A stretch of DNA of 64,000 bases from Meiothermus sp. (lineage in GTDB: Bacteria; Deinococcota; Deinococci; Deinococcales; Thermaceae), in assembly GCF_026004055.1 (NCBI RefSeq), contig NZ_BPIJ01000001.1, positions 868,001 to 932,000 on the forward strand, read 5' to 3'. Below, piece after piece: positions 15,168 to 63,338 of the stretch. Each line of letters begins with the position of its first letter. Position 1 is the stretch's first letter. The translations under genes and the position numbers were made by a program. The notes beneath the pieces were generated by a model that was not told the DNA's origin, did no database searches, and saw nothing but the letters and a program-made list of their open reading frames with translations.

Positions 15168-15195
15168 AGGCGCTCGAGGGGGCGTTGGATTCTTA

Positions 15196-15320
15196 TACCG
15201 GATTCAAAAAGATAGTTTTCAGAACAAACAACCCTGGTAGTTATCTTTTTGAATCCTAGAGCACTCCCTTCGGTCGGGTTAGTTTGTCACCGAACGGTGA
15301 CAAACTAACCGAATCTGGTA
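15196..15320. mobile_element. MITE copy 1 (125 bp), intact, TTA target duplication
   Basis: Starts TACCGGATTC and ends GAATCTGGTA (imperfect terminal inverted repeats) and is flanked by TTA on both sides (15193-15195 and 15321-15323), a 3-bp TNA-type target duplication. Two internal hairpins: GGATTCAAAAAGATA with its perfect complement, and TTAGTTTGTCACC/GGTGACAAACTAA. There is no ORF. It is 125 bp long, like copy 2 at 46151-46275. The right-hand TTA is the truB stop codon read on the minus strand, so insertion left TruB unchanged. It lies between convergent lrp and truB and may double as a terminator. Confidence 0.88.
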
Positions 15321-16250
15321 TTATTCCTTGAACACCCGCCTAATGCGGAGTTTGAAGCCGTCCCCCTCGGCCATCGCCACCAGCCGGCGCTTGGGACCAA
15401 CCAGGGCCACCAGTCCCCGGGCGGGAATGGGCAGCGGTACCCCCTCCATCACCCGCTTGGCCTCGGCGTGGGAGAGCTCGACGCTGGGGCAGGAAAGGGC
15501 CTCGAGCTCGTCCAGGGTTTTTCGCACATCCAGGTGCTCTATTTCCTGGGCCTGCCCCAGGCCAATCTTCCCCACCCTGGTTCGCACCAGACCCGAGAGG
15601 AAGGCTTTGCTGCCCAGTTGCTCGCCCAGGTCTCGAGCAAATGAGCGCACATAGGTACCGGGCCCTACCACCAAGCGGATCACGGCGGTAGGATACGCGC
15701 CCAAGGGCTTGGGCAACTCAACCGGGCGCCCCCGCTCGGAGAGTTTCCAGCCCGAAGCCGAAGGCGCAATGCGGTGGGGGATGGGGGTGGGGTCGTAGGC
15801 CAGCAATTGAAGCTCATGGTATCTGACCGGGCGGGGCTCGAGCTCGATGGCCTGTCCTTTGCGGGCTGCTTCATAGGCCTTGACTCCCCCCACCTTGACC
15901 GCCGAGTAGGCCGGGGGCCGTTGCTCCACTACCGACAAAAATCCAGGTAAGGCTGCTTCAACCTCGCGCTGGCTGGGACGCCGGGCGCTTTCCTCTACAA
16001 TGGGGCCTTCGGCATCCAAAGTCTCGGTGGTTGCCCCAAAGGAAACCCAGGCGATGTATTCTTTGTCTTCTGCCGAAAGAAAGGGCACCAGTTTGGTCGA
16101 GGCATCGGTGGCCAAAATCAAAACCCCCGTGGCCAGAGGGTCGAGGGTTCCGGTATGGCCCACCCGGCGGGTTCCCAGCAGTTTACGAACCATGTCCACC
16201 ACGTCGTGCGAGGTGCGGCCCAGGGGTTTGTTCACGGCAAATAGAGCCAT
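15321..16250 (-). CDS. truB: tRNA pseudouridine(55) synthase
   Basis: 309-aa TruB, which makes pseudouridine 55 in the T-loop of tRNAs. The catalytic Asp lies in VGHTGTLDPLATGVL, preceded by NKPLGRTSHDVVDMVRK; RPPAYSAVKVGGVKAYEAARKG and VGPGTYVRSFARDLGE are further family blocks, and a C-terminal PUA-like region follows (ARGLVALVG...). The start is ATG 16250 (MALFAVNKPLG). A TACAAT box 8 nt upstream suggests a leaderless message. A longer in-frame reading runs into a dispersed repeat and is not coding. The stop codon coincides with the target duplication of MITE copy 1. Confidence 0.96.
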   Translation of the reverse strand: MALFAVNKPLGRTSHDVVDMVRKLLGTRRVGHTGTLDPLATGVLILATDASTKLVPFLSAEDKEYIAWVSFGATTETLDAEGPIVEESARRPSQREVEAALPGFLSVVEQRPPAYSAVKVGGVKAYEAARKGQAIELEPRPVRYHELQLLAYDPTPIPHRIAPSASGWKLSERGRPVELPKPLGAYPTAVIRLVVGPGTYVRSFARDLGEQLGSKAFLSGLVRTRVGKIGLGQAQEIEHLDVRKTLDELEALSCPSVELSHAEAKRVMEGVPLPIPARGLVALVGPKRRLVAMAEGDGFKLRIRRVFKE

Positions 16251-46050: not shown

Positions 46051-46462
46051 TCCACAGCGCCGACTTTGAACACATCCCTGACCGGATTGCCCGCATAGAT
46101 TTTTGCGGCAGCTGCTAGGTGGTTGGGTACATGAATCAAAAAACCCATCATACCGGATTCAAAAAGATACTCTTCAAAACCAAAAAACCCAGAGGCTATC
46201 TTTTTGAATCCTAGAGCACTCCCTTCGGTCGGGTTAGTTCGTCACCATTCGGTGACGAACTAACCGAATCTGGTATCAGCAGTTGGCTGGCCTCCTTTGG
46301 GCTAAGTGCCTCGGGATTTTGGTAGAACTTGACCAGAGCCTCGAGGTCACCGAGCCAATCCGTCATATGGAAAGCCACATCCGAAGCATCTGTAGGGGAT
46401 AACTCCATTTCCGTAGTCGAAATCTGCTCTATAGTTTGCTGAATTCGCAAGCTGTCAAACAT
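46026..46462 (-). pseudogene. Small hypothetical gene interrupted by MITE copy 2
   Basis: The N-terminal part (MFDSLRIQQTIEQISTTEME..., EALVKFYQNPEALSPKEASQLL) reads straight into the MITE. On the other side the frame resumes MGFLIHVPNHLAAAAKIYAG, NPVRDVFKVGAVEQEG and ends SDSA. Removing the 125-bp element plus one TGA target copy joins LL directly to MGFL in frame, giving a ~102-aa protein. The family is not recognised. With the MITE in place the protein ends 21 residues into the element. Confidence 0.8.
46151..46275. mobile_element. MITE copy 2 (125 bp), intact, TCA target duplication
   Basis: Same ends and length as copy 1 (TACCGGATTC ... GAATCTGGTA), flanked by TCA at 46148-46150 and 46276-46278. 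The second internal hairpin reads TTAGTTCGTCACC/GGTGACGAACTAA, so relative to copy 1 a T-A pair is replaced by C-G with pairing kept. Inserted into a small minus-strand gene downstream of ilvD. Confidence 0.9.
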
Positions 46463-46537: not shown

Positions 46538-46594
46538 TCCTAACGCCGGAGTTAAGCCGCCCCGCAGCGGAGCGGCTTGAACGAATTGTTAGGC
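46538..46594 (-). repeat. attC-A, canonical integron cassette recombination site
   Basis: 57 bp. On the minus strand: GCCTAACAATTCGTTCAAGC, CGCTCCGCTGCGGGGC, GGCTTAACTCCGGCGTTAGG. This has R''-type GCCTAAC and R'-type GCGTTAGG core sites, L-box-like TTCAAGCC/GGCTTAAC arms and a central hairpin, as in classical 59-base elements. It overlaps the stop codon of the hypothetical cassette gene, as is typical. Confidence 0.9.
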
Positions 46595-47200
46595 TGCGCT
46601 CTTTGTAAGGGAGCAAACTTTTGTTTGATTGTCCTGGCTGTCCCATAGCGTGCAGTAAAAGGCTTCGCCGTGTATGGATATGAAGTGGCGCTCGACGAAT
46701 AGCCGAAGTCTTTGAAGATTTTCCCAGAGTTGTGGCGCTTTCTTGGCATAGAAATTGGCATGGTCTTGGTTCACGTAAGGATTGACTTCATGAAGCCATG
46801 CATGCAGTGCTTTGTAGATTCCGATTAGGTCGTCATGCGATAGGCGTCTTTCTGGAATCCCTTCAACTGTAACTTTGACATTGTTTGCTTGCTGCTCTTC
46901 ATCTGTCGCCGATCGGATGCGGCTAGGGCTTGGTAAAACCGTTAGCCCTTTCGACTTCAGCCTGTTGAAAATATCTTCCGCATTCCATTGGCCCTTGGCG
47001 TCTCGAGGCACTTGCTTTAGGCCATTCTCAATGGCTACTAAGCATCCGAATGCAATGGCCTCAACAATCTTCCGCCCTTGGAATGCCGCGGCTTCTGCTC
47101 GTGAGAAAGGCAAAAAGGTTGCTGACTGCAATGCTTCAATCGCATCGAAGCGCTCACGAACCGTGAGCATGAGTGAATAGTAAGTGTCGCGAGCGTCCAT
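46589..47200 (-). CDS. Integron cassette 1: hypothetical protein
   Basis: 203 aa, unrecognised. Notable blocks: DARDTYYSLMLTVRERFDAI, FQGRKIVEAIAFGCLVAIENGL, ALHAWLHEVNPYV and RLRLFVERHFISIHGEAF. Mostly helical by eye, no signal or TM segment. Base composition is visibly nearer 50% G+C than that of its chromosomal neighbours. The stop codon is inside attC-A and the gene is oriented away from the integrase fragment, as expected of a cassette. Function unknown. Confidence 0.8.
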   Translation of the reverse strand: MDARDTYYSLMLTVRERFDAIEALQSATFLPFSRAEAAAFQGRKIVEAIAFGCLVAIENGLKQVPRDAKGQWNAEDIFNRLKSKGLTVLPSPSRIRSATDEEQQANNVKVTVEGIPERRLSHDDLIGIYKALHAWLHEVNPYVNQDHANFYAKKAPQLWENLQRLRLFVERHFISIHGEAFYCTLWDSQDNQTKVCSLTKSAA

Positions 47201-47222
47201 AAGCAGAATTCTCTCCTAGCAA

Positions 47223-47244
47223 CCTAACGCTCCGGTTGTTAGGC
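47223..47244 (-). repeat. attC-B, core-deleted cassette site
   Basis: On the minus strand GCCTAACAACCGG then AGCGTTAGG, only 22 bp. The outer core sites match attC-A but the central hairpin and L boxes are missing, as if deleted between CCTAACAA and CCGGCGTTAGG. Such a site is unlikely to recombine well. Confidence 0.72.
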
Positions 47245-47811
47245 GGTTCCACTCGAATCGCCTTTATGTACTTCATAGCGCAACTCAACCATTCCAGTAC
47301 CCATCTGGCGAACAGAGACCAAGCGTAAAACCGGATTTAACACTCTGCGAGGGAAAAGCGGCTTGCCTTTGCCGAGAGTGGCTGAACCGATCTGAACAAT
47401 CAGCTCGTCCAGCAGGCCGGCATCATAGAATTGCCCAGCGAGATCACCGCCTCCGACTATCCAGACGTTCTTGCTGCCAGCAGCAGCCTGCATTTCAGCA
47501 TGGACGCGGCGCACATCTCCATTAACGAATCGGATATTCGCGCCTTCGATTGCTGGAAGCGTGCGACTGGAAAATATCCAGGCCGGTTGGGTATATGGCC
47601 ACGCCGCGCCAGTCTCAGCAATAACCTTTTCTGAATTGCGTATCATCCACTCGTAGGTTGCCGATCCCATGGCTAATGCGCCCACGCCCGAGATGAACTC
47701 TGGGTAGCTAGAGCTATTCAGGTCGCCGAGAGGGAAAAGCCAGTCCAGCGAGTCGTCTTCTGTTGCGATGAAGCCGTCGAGGCTCGTGGCGGTGTAATAC
47801 TGCGTTTTCAT
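47239..47811 (-). CDS. Integron cassette 2: RibD-C/DHFR-like reductase
   Basis: 190 aa. Blocks typical of the RibD C-terminal/DHFR-like group: YYTATSLDGFIATEDDSLDWL at the N-terminus, GALAMGSATYEWM, NVWIVGGGDLAGQFYDAGLLDELIVQI, and a C-terminal PLFPRRVLNPVLRLVSVRQ. Such proteins bind NADPH, but the substrate is unknown and antifolate resistance cannot be concluded. Lower G+C than flanking chromosome; the stop codon lies in attC-B and attC-C is just upstream, so it is a complete cassette. Confidence 0.85.
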   Translation of the reverse strand: MKTQYYTATSLDGFIATEDDSLDWLFPLGDLNSSSYPEFISGVGALAMGSATYEWMIRNSEKVIAETGAAWPYTQPAWIFSSRTLPAIEGANIRFVNGDVRRVHAEMQAAAGSKNVWIVGGGDLAGQFYDAGLLDELIVQIGSATLGKGKPLFPRRVLNPVLRLVSVRQMGTGMVELRYEVHKGDSSGTA

Positions 47812-47835
47812 AGTTTATTGTCTACCCATGCTGCC

Positions 47836-47913
47836 GCCTAACGTTTGAGTTCACCCGCGGACGGAAGCGGGCGAAGCCCGCTGTAGACCGTCGGGTGCAA
47901 CGAAGGGTAAGGC
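47836..47913 (-). repeat. attC-C, cassette recombination site
   Basis: 78 bp. On the minus strand it begins GCCTTACCC (a variant R'' core), has TTGCACCCG.../CCGCGGGTGAAC arms, a central hairpin AGCGGGC TTC GCCCGCT, and ends AACTCAAACGTTAGGC (R'). It follows the NTF2-like cassette gene. Confidence 0.82.
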
Positions 47914-47928
47914 AGCGATGTAGGGCGC

Positions 47929-48357
47929 TTACCCTGTTACCGATTGTACCGGCCGGATGCCGGCAATCGGGTCAGCGTGCCGGTGAACGAGCCTCCAGCC
48001 GCTGCCTTCAAGGCGAAACAGGCTGGTTACCCGCAGGGCGACCGTCGCAACTTCTGGCGCCGATGCAAGCCTTACGGAGAATCGTTCCATCTCCACCACA
48101 CAAGCCAGCGTGTCACTCGTGTGCGTAGCAATCCGGTCGAACCCAAGAATCGTTCCTTCGGAGTAATTGCCCGCCGCTCTCAAACCTGCAGTTCGAGTTG
48201 CCGCACGGCCACATGCAAACGGGCCAAATGGATTGCCGATCGTAATGTCTTCTGCGTCCGAATAGAGCGCCATGAACGGCTCGATATCGCCCCTGATGAT
48301 TGATTCGAGCGCACGATGACTCGCTTCGATGGCATCTTCAATCGTATCGAGCTTCAT
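47929..48357 (-). CDS. Integron cassette 3: NTF2-like (SnoaL/DUF4440-type) protein
   Basis: 142 aa. DAIEASHRALESIIRGDIEPFMALYSDAEDI at the start, GNPFGPFACGR, and VALRVTSLFRLEGSGWRLVHRHADP at the end, which is the usual close of ketosteroid-isomerase-like folds. Probably binds or converts a small molecule; substrate unknown. First cassette next to the attI-like junction. GGAGG SD before ATG 48357. Confidence 0.82.
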   Translation of the reverse strand: MKLDTIEDAIEASHRALESIIRGDIEPFMALYSDAEDITIGNPFGPFACGRAATRTAGLRAAGNYSEGTILGFDRIATHTSDTLACVVEMERFSVRLASAPEVATVALRVTSLFRLEGSGWRLVHRHADPIAGIRPVQSVTG

Positions 48358-48408
48358 GGCACCTCCGGGTATTGGTGTTCGAGGATCACTCTCGCGGGGA
48401 CTGTCGCT

Positions 48409-48470
48409 GCCTAACTAGTAGTTATACCACACCTGCGGTATAACGCCCTCCTGAGAGGAGTTATGCCGAA
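48409..48470 (-). promoter_or_regulatory. attI-like junction
   Basis: GTTAGGC at 48415-48409 (minus strand) marks the crossover point of the first cassette. Next to it lies a perfect inverted repeat GTTATACC/GGTATAAC (complementary plus-strand arms 48421-48428 and 48437-48444). It lies between the integrase fragment and cassette 3, where an integron attI belongs. No direct match to a known attI is claimed. Confidence 0.6.
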
Positions 48471-48650
48471 GTGGCGAATGACAATAAACCACCGAAGTTT
48501 TATTCACCCAAGACCTCCCCTTTCCTAAACTCAGTGCGCGAGGCCATCCGGGTTCGCCATCTAGCCCATAGCACTGAACGGTCGTATTTACGTTACATCA
48601 CCGACTTCCTCCTCAATAATTCCGCACCCGACCAAGTGGCGTTTTGCTAA
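48471..48650 (+). pseudogene. intI: Truncated integron integrase (IntI N-terminus)
   Basis: 59 codons from GTG 48471 to TAA 48648-48650: SPFLNSVREAIRVRHLAHST and ERSYLRYITDFLLNN match the SAM-like N-terminal domain of integron/tyrosine integrases (compare VREAIRxRHYSxRTExAYxxWIxxF). The R, H, R and catalytic Tyr residues of the C-terminal domain are absent and sequence after the stop is not integrase-like. It is divergent from the cassettes across an attI-like site, as in true integrons. So the integron can no longer make its own active integrase. Confidence 0.75.
48483..48511 (-). promoter_or_regulatory. Candidate cassette promoter (Pc)
   Basis: Inside the integrase fragment and pointing to the cassettes: TTGGGT (48511-48506), 17-nt spacer, TTTATT (48488-48483). 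Pc usually lies in intI or attI. Seen by eye only. Confidence 0.4.
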
Positions 48651-48801
48651 AGCAACGCTCGAGTGTAGTTTGTACTAAAGCGCTTTGTTGTAATAAACTC
48701 TGCTCCAAACCAAGCCCTCACGGTGGAGACAGTCAACGGTCTCCGCTCTTTGTTGTGTCAGGGTAGACTATGCGGCGTTACGATCGTTCTGGAGCTCGAG
48801 T

Positions 48802-62948: not shown

Positions 62949-63148
62949 ACCTCTGCCTCCTTGTGGGAACCCTTTAGAGCCCCCGTGACCCGGAACCATT
63001 TTTGGTCGAGGCCAGTATACGGCAAAGCCTTTTTGGTATCCAGGTGGTCTATGTTGAAACGATGCTTGTACTACTGAGTTCAGAGAATAGATTTGGAGCT
63101 GTTTTTCACAAAGAAGGCCGCAGTGCAATTAGTGGCTGACACATATAA

Positions 63149-63338
63149 TACCGGATTCAAAAAGATACTCTTCAAAACCAGAAACCCAGAGGCTATCTTT
63201 TTGCATCCTAGAGCACACCCCTCCCTGACGGTCGGCGAAAAAAAACGTCTCCCTTCCAAGGGGCGGTATCGCCCTCCGCTACGCGGATAACTTCGGTCGG
63301 GTTAGTTCGTCACCATTCGGTGACGAACTAACCGAATC
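63149..63338. mobile_element. MITE copy 3, rearranged, right end lost
   Basis: Left end TACCGGATTC preceded by TAA, first hairpin nearly intact (one mismatch), then an extra ~70 bp between GAGCAC and TTCGGTCGGG, the second hairpin as in copy 2, and GAATC. The terminal TGGTA and right-hand target copy are missing; instead sequence runs straight into an IS630-type transposase remnant. Confidence 0.82.

Follow-up and report, generated by a model that had tools for sequence, protein, structure and literature searches.

Remains of a chromosomal integron, very probably of a Thermaceae-resident lineage, in a Meiothermus genome

Integrons are gene-capturing devices, best known for spreading antibiotic resistance. 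In the window analysed here (the whole stretch of 64,000 nucleotides from Meiothermus sp.), a preliminary description made from the letters alone had proposed an integron with three cassettes, an attI-like site and a fossil integrase. Is this an integron, and does it belong to a lineage resident in the family of its host or was it brought in from elsewhere? All of the proposed features are present, and positions 46538-48611 very probably represent a decayed (fossil) chromosomal integron of a Thermaceae-resident lineage. What remains is attI, an intI reduced to its first ~47 codons, and three cassettes sharing one orientation, the products of which are, from the intI-proximal to the distal one, a SnoaL/NTF2-like protein, a RibD_C/DHFR-like protein and a 203-aa hypothetical protein. 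Anatomy, homology, the identity of the attC and attI sites and the loss of intI are established, at the level of sequence, by the following features:

46538-46594, minus: complete attC of cassette 3, Xanthomonadales-like, crossover 46543/46544 (R1 45.6 bits, E 9.5e-7 genome-wide)
46544-47227, minus: gene cassette 3, 684 bp from crossover to crossover, core boxes at both ends; limits set by the IntI crossover position
46589-47200, minus: 203-aa hypothetical protein of cassette 3 (open reading frame; GC3 0.505)
47223-47244, minus: attC remnant of cassette 2, both core boxes (GCCTAAC/GTTAGG), middle deleted (sequence; weak fold)
47228-47841, minus: gene cassette 2, 614 bp, core boxes at both ends
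47239-47811, minus: 190-aa RibD_C/dihydrofolate-reductase-like protein of cassette 2 (PF01872, 1e-14)
47836-47913, minus: complete attC of cassette 1, R'' box GCCTTAC instead of GCCTAAC (R1 46.7 bits, E 5.2e-7, the best of the genome)
47842-48414, minus: gene cassette 1, 573 bp, core boxes at both ends
47929-48357, minus: 142-aa SnoaL-like (NTF2 fold) protein of cassette 1 (PF13474, 3.8e-8)
48409-48415, minus: attI core (GTTAGGC), crossover 48414/48415; conservation in nine Thermaceae integrons begins here
48410-48611, plus: attI and intI 5' segment common to other Thermaceae (identity 90.1% to G026, 86.1% to G028, 81.6% to G027, 67.8% to G034)
48421-48444, no strand: palindrome GTTATACCACA-NN-TGCGGTATAAC between the attI point and intI, conserved in related loci
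48471-48650, plus: intI pseudogene, a 59-codon frame with IntI homology in residues 1-47 that ends at 48611 (PF13495, 2.9e-6; TIGR02249)

The attC sites were scored with R1, a covariance model built from 15 attC sites in integrons of other bacteria, those found through IntI; as it was trained on other bacteria only, the sites are tested without circularity. Its top two matches across the 3.18-Mb genome are 47836-47913 and 46538-46594 on the minus strand, the very coordinates put forward in the preliminary description. When the recombining bottom strand is folded, each site yields the hairpin expected of an attC, with a bulged base in 46538-46594 (z -2.5) and a bulge in 47836-47913 (z -4.0); the classical architecture ascribed to the former is present. 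A rule-based attC finder permitting one mismatch returned only 46538-46594 on both strands of the 64 kb, and under stricter settings gave 47 matches on the cassette strand and 0 on the opposite strand in 982 kb of intI loci. An Rfam scan of the window gave no family match, which carries little weight because Rfam may hold no attC model. The earlier statement that each gene ends in a CCTAAC...GTTAGG site stands for two complete attCs; 47223-47244, 22 bp long, is only an internally deleted remnant that does not fold significantly (z -1.5). With R''/R' and L''/L' boxes in two complete sites at cassette 3' ends, and a remnant as the third, the array conforms to the general definition of an integron. 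It is also a CALIN as defined for IntegronFinder 2 (at least two attC within 4 kb, without an intact intI), the two matches lying 1.24 kb apart as scored with R1, not with IntegronFinder's own model. Against the reading as a fossil integron speak the reduction of one of the three attCs to 22 bp and the mutated R'' box of another, as well as the shortness of the IntI fragment and the lack of a recognised cassette promoter.

At the head of the array, the GTTAGGC junction and adjacent inverted repeat noted earlier are both found: 48409-48415 (GCCTAAC on the plus strand) holds the crossover, and the arms of the repeat occupy 48421-48431 and 48434-48444. This palindrome may be an operator or an integrase-binding site. 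In an alignment of nine Thermaceae loci on the crossover (GCCYAA^C), mean pairwise identity rises from 0.29 on the cassette side to 0.71 in the first 20 bases on the attI side, and beyond the crossover point the sequence differs in every one of the nine integrons. Because conservation starts only at the crossover, different first cassettes appear to have been joined at one point, a trace of integron recombination that marks attI as the place where the first cassette joins. Capture of the cassettes at a secondary site, through an integrase operating from another location and with the intI fragment incidental, is extremely unlikely: the same genome does contain a solitary attC on contig C3 and a second integron relict at 133-134 kb of contig C1, but here the first cassette meets attI exactly at the crossover point.

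The claimed layout, intI divergent from oriented cassettes, is present, with compact open reading frames in a single orientation. The 59-codon frame, described earlier as an IntI N-terminal piece, matches an integron integrase in PF13495 (34 aligned residues, over the curated cut-off), in positions 1-35 of TIGR02249 (1.5e-4) and in the DNA of relatives, although only residues 1-47 are homologous and the remainder is run-on. The TIGR02249 score is far under the full-length cut-off, as expected of a fragment. Positions 48612-48721 match nothing else among the sequences compared, and the missing 3' part of intI was sought near other rearrangement ends and not found. Since the integrase stops at codon ~47 and a search of this genome yielded no complete IntI, the copy is a fossil, and the proposed loss of the integrase is confirmed. 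The locus is accordingly not a complete integron, which would have an intact intI with RHRY catalytic residues and the IntI-specific insert. That chance inverted repeats lie here beside the relict of an ordinary phage or Xer recombinase has next to no probability, even though the fragment is short and TIGR02249 weakly matches Xer-like genes in many genomes (controls): a single stretch of 1.4 kb contains the top two attC matches of the genome, each at the 3' end of a gene; chance matches are rare, 98 of 111 Deinococcota genomes having no attC-model match at E 1e-3; and the attI-intI DNA has nucleotide identity to that of relatives.

The three minus-strand genes are as unlike their host as had been suggested: their GC3 is 0.51-0.59, that of the neighbouring ilvD and mrpA 0.83-0.85. 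No promoter for the cassettes could be recognised in the array. The closest homologs of the RibD-like protein, with identities of 85% and 83%, are encoded by Nostocales plasmids (Aulosira laxa AP018310, Nostoc commune NZ_AP025733); their genes, like the one here, have a GCCTAAC box over the stop codon and then an attC-like left half. In these homologs GCCTAACAATTGCAATG..AGCGGAC follows the gene and a GTTAGAC or GTTATGC box lies upstream, as expected of a former cassette; the left half is longer and likewise begins with GCCTAACAA. The right half of the attC has decayed in the plasmids, whereas the Meiothermus copy has lost the middle. The 203-aa protein has no significant Pfam or NCBIfam family, no homologs in plasmids or viral contigs, and one weak match (27%) across 38 integron-bearing genomes.

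Over 63 bp, the attC of cassette 3 shares 85.7% identity with those of the aadB (ant(2'')-Ia) cassettes of class 1 integrons, a type assigned to Xanthomonadales by Ghaly et al. (PMC8352920); the genes of the two cassettes are unrelated, and cassette 3 is not carried by a mobile element. The likeness of the attCs would suit a recently acquired mobile integron, proteobacterial and class-1-like, inserted by the mrp operon. Such an origin is nonetheless very improbable: attI and intI have the sequence type of the Thermaceae, and neither a transposase nor a plasmid backbone was seen next to the array. The IntI tree places the Thermaceae proteins outside the proteobacterial clade, in a group with those of Cyanobacteria and Anaerolineae (100/98 support). 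Mobile class 1 integrons are recognised by intI1, a sul1/qacE 3' segment or a transposon or plasmid context; the intI and attI found here are different, and a search of PLSDB plasmid DNA gave a 131-bp stretch outside the array as its sole match. A single origin of all Thermaceae IntI types was neither rejected nor demonstrated (p-AU 0.50). Rooting with XerD introduced a long branch, and that tree was set aside.

A full intI was sought in related Meiothermus genomes and found in four of them (G035, G042, G040 and G030, the last being M. luteus), in each case over the curated cut-off. These IntIs carry the stretch ALARKYPNAAKEWGWQYVFP, which we take to be the IntI-specific region, and their genes adjoin a gene of the arginase/agmatinase family (named by eye from the translation). 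The type-1 integrons of these four genomes (L025-L027, L031) resemble the fossil in a homologous attI position and IntI N-terminus and in the same crossover point, though with different cassettes; they differ from it in the full-length intI, the attI-intI sequence type and the chromosomal site. Further attC sites lie near intI in G040, G033, G026, G028 and M. luteus, with additional ones at other places in several Meiothermus genomes. The integrons of the relatives are apparently intact and probably functional. Their cassette frames encode, among other products, a single-chain HSDR_N/N6-methylase/specificity protein, a GNAT acetyltransferase, DUF1697, an alpha/beta hydrolase and PhzF. The first cassette of the full-length G040 integron (L025 9139-11709) specifies an 856-aa protein with HSDR_N, N6-methylase and specificity domains, likely a restriction-modification defence gene.

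How did the integron come to its present place? Among 18 Meiothermus genomes only this one contains the 1.87-kb array, so these are not ordinary chromosomal genes of the genus. Downstream of ilvD, G036 and the window agree as far as 46533, five bases short of the attC; G036 then runs on into an RNA-methyltransferase-like gene, whose counterpart here lies at 788 kb of C1; the mrp neighbours of G036 correspond to 1251 kb of C1. As the ilvD and mrp neighbourhoods are unlinked in G036 and joined here, the integron sits at a rearrangement junction. It adjoins mrp as had been described, but by no simple insertion.

The attI-intI piece is 90% identical to that of another genus (G026), whose ilvD is 80% identical, and 82% identical to that of a congener, whose ilvD is 91% identical. 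Being nearer to another genus and less near to the congener than ilvD, it suggests exchange within the Thermaceae, with ilvD as the one host gene compared. Vertical inheritance of the platform at this place, downstream of ilvD, would do without such transfer and finds a parallel in G034, where an attC, a cassette, attI and an intI fragment likewise follow ilvD, with a flanking motif in common with this locus. This inverse relation of identities, together with the lack of an integron after ilvD in most Meiothermus, makes vertical descent doubtful, though a distinct possibility. The proposed horizontal acquisition is therefore firm for the cassettes and tentative for the platform, the attI-intI segment of which is part of a Thermaceae lineage that has full-length representatives in the genus.

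The order of capture, the donors of the cassettes and the cause of the intI truncation we infer for the fossil integron as follows. An intact IntI would once have recombined the folded bottom-strand attC of circular cassettes into attI, each incoming cassette entering beside intI and displacing the older ones outward. By that order, the SnoaL-like cassette would be the most recent arrival and the 203-aa one the earliest. The cassettes presumably came from other bacteria (one attC is of the Xanthomonadales type, and the RibD-like gene is common to cyanobacterial plasmids). A later rearrangement uniting the ilvD and mrp neighbourhoods may have removed intI past codon ~47, and, no complete IntI having been found in the genome, the array would be frozen unless one arrives from outside.

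Among known systems, the sedentary chromosomal integrons and CALINs of Gammaproteobacteria (e.g. Xanthomonadales; PMC9024848) are similar in attI, intI and oriented cassettes, and in R''/L''/L'/R' attCs with a bulged base on the folded bottom strand; the Meiothermus locus differs in its Deinococcota host, truncated intI, three cassettes only and an IntI outside the proteobacterial clade. The word integron was used earlier within the Thermaceae for the 'super-integron' of Thermus parvatiensis (PMC5529391), which is described as a prophage region with attL/attR, phage genes and a tRNA, not attC cassettes. A 2021 review names 14 phyla with integrons, Deinococcota not among them (PMC8618304), and the text on IntegronFinder 2 makes no mention of the phylum (PMC9024848). 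A search of openly accessible main texts for integrons in Meiothermus, Deinococcus, Deinococcus-Thermus and Deinococcota returned no report. The kind of integron is known, and we found no earlier report of a Deinococcota host in the papers searched.

The chances are about even that Meiothermus has working chromosomal integrons, full-length in several species, which are exchanged among Thermaceae and capture proteobacterial and cyanobacterial cassettes at elevated temperature. If so, Deinococcota would join the integron hosts, and single-stranded attC folding and recombination would function at thermophilic temperatures. The apparently intact integrases of a thermophile would supply heat-stable IntI for structural and in vitro work, its integrons would show what high temperature does to attC hairpins, and they would open a cassette pool outside the usual hosts, including the G040 restriction-modification gene. 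The fossil, for its part, illustrates the death of an integron, with cassettes left fixed behind.

Several minor observations may be added. A ~130-bp element with inverted ends and an internal hairpin occupies 46147-46276 and repeats at 15195-15321 and 63145-63338; missing at the matching G036 site (L042), it is a MITE-like insertion. The second relict of this genome (C1:133059-134406; L032 8060-9407) consists of a type-1 IntI N-terminus reading into a HigA-like antitoxin C-terminus (180 aa), attI, a 316-aa frame without Pfam match and a weak attC (24.8 bits). The idea that IntI-antitoxin fusions form a conserved gene was rejected, the HigA-like tail occurring only in this genome; G040 (35-kb contig) and G029 instead have the same internally deleted type-2 intI with an open frame of 167 codons (L033 4513-4767 and L034 6393-6647). 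The solitary attC (24.8 bits; C3:106477-106557, L200 1501-1581) stands at the 3' end of a GIY-YIG (LEM-3-like) frame. In other Deinococcota genera, attC-model matches occur at G050:C1:278246-278314, G044:C13:17160, G108:C1:1530346 and 1531809 (two matches 1.5 kb apart) and G099:C83:30574, the last genome also encoding a nearly full-length IntI on another contig.
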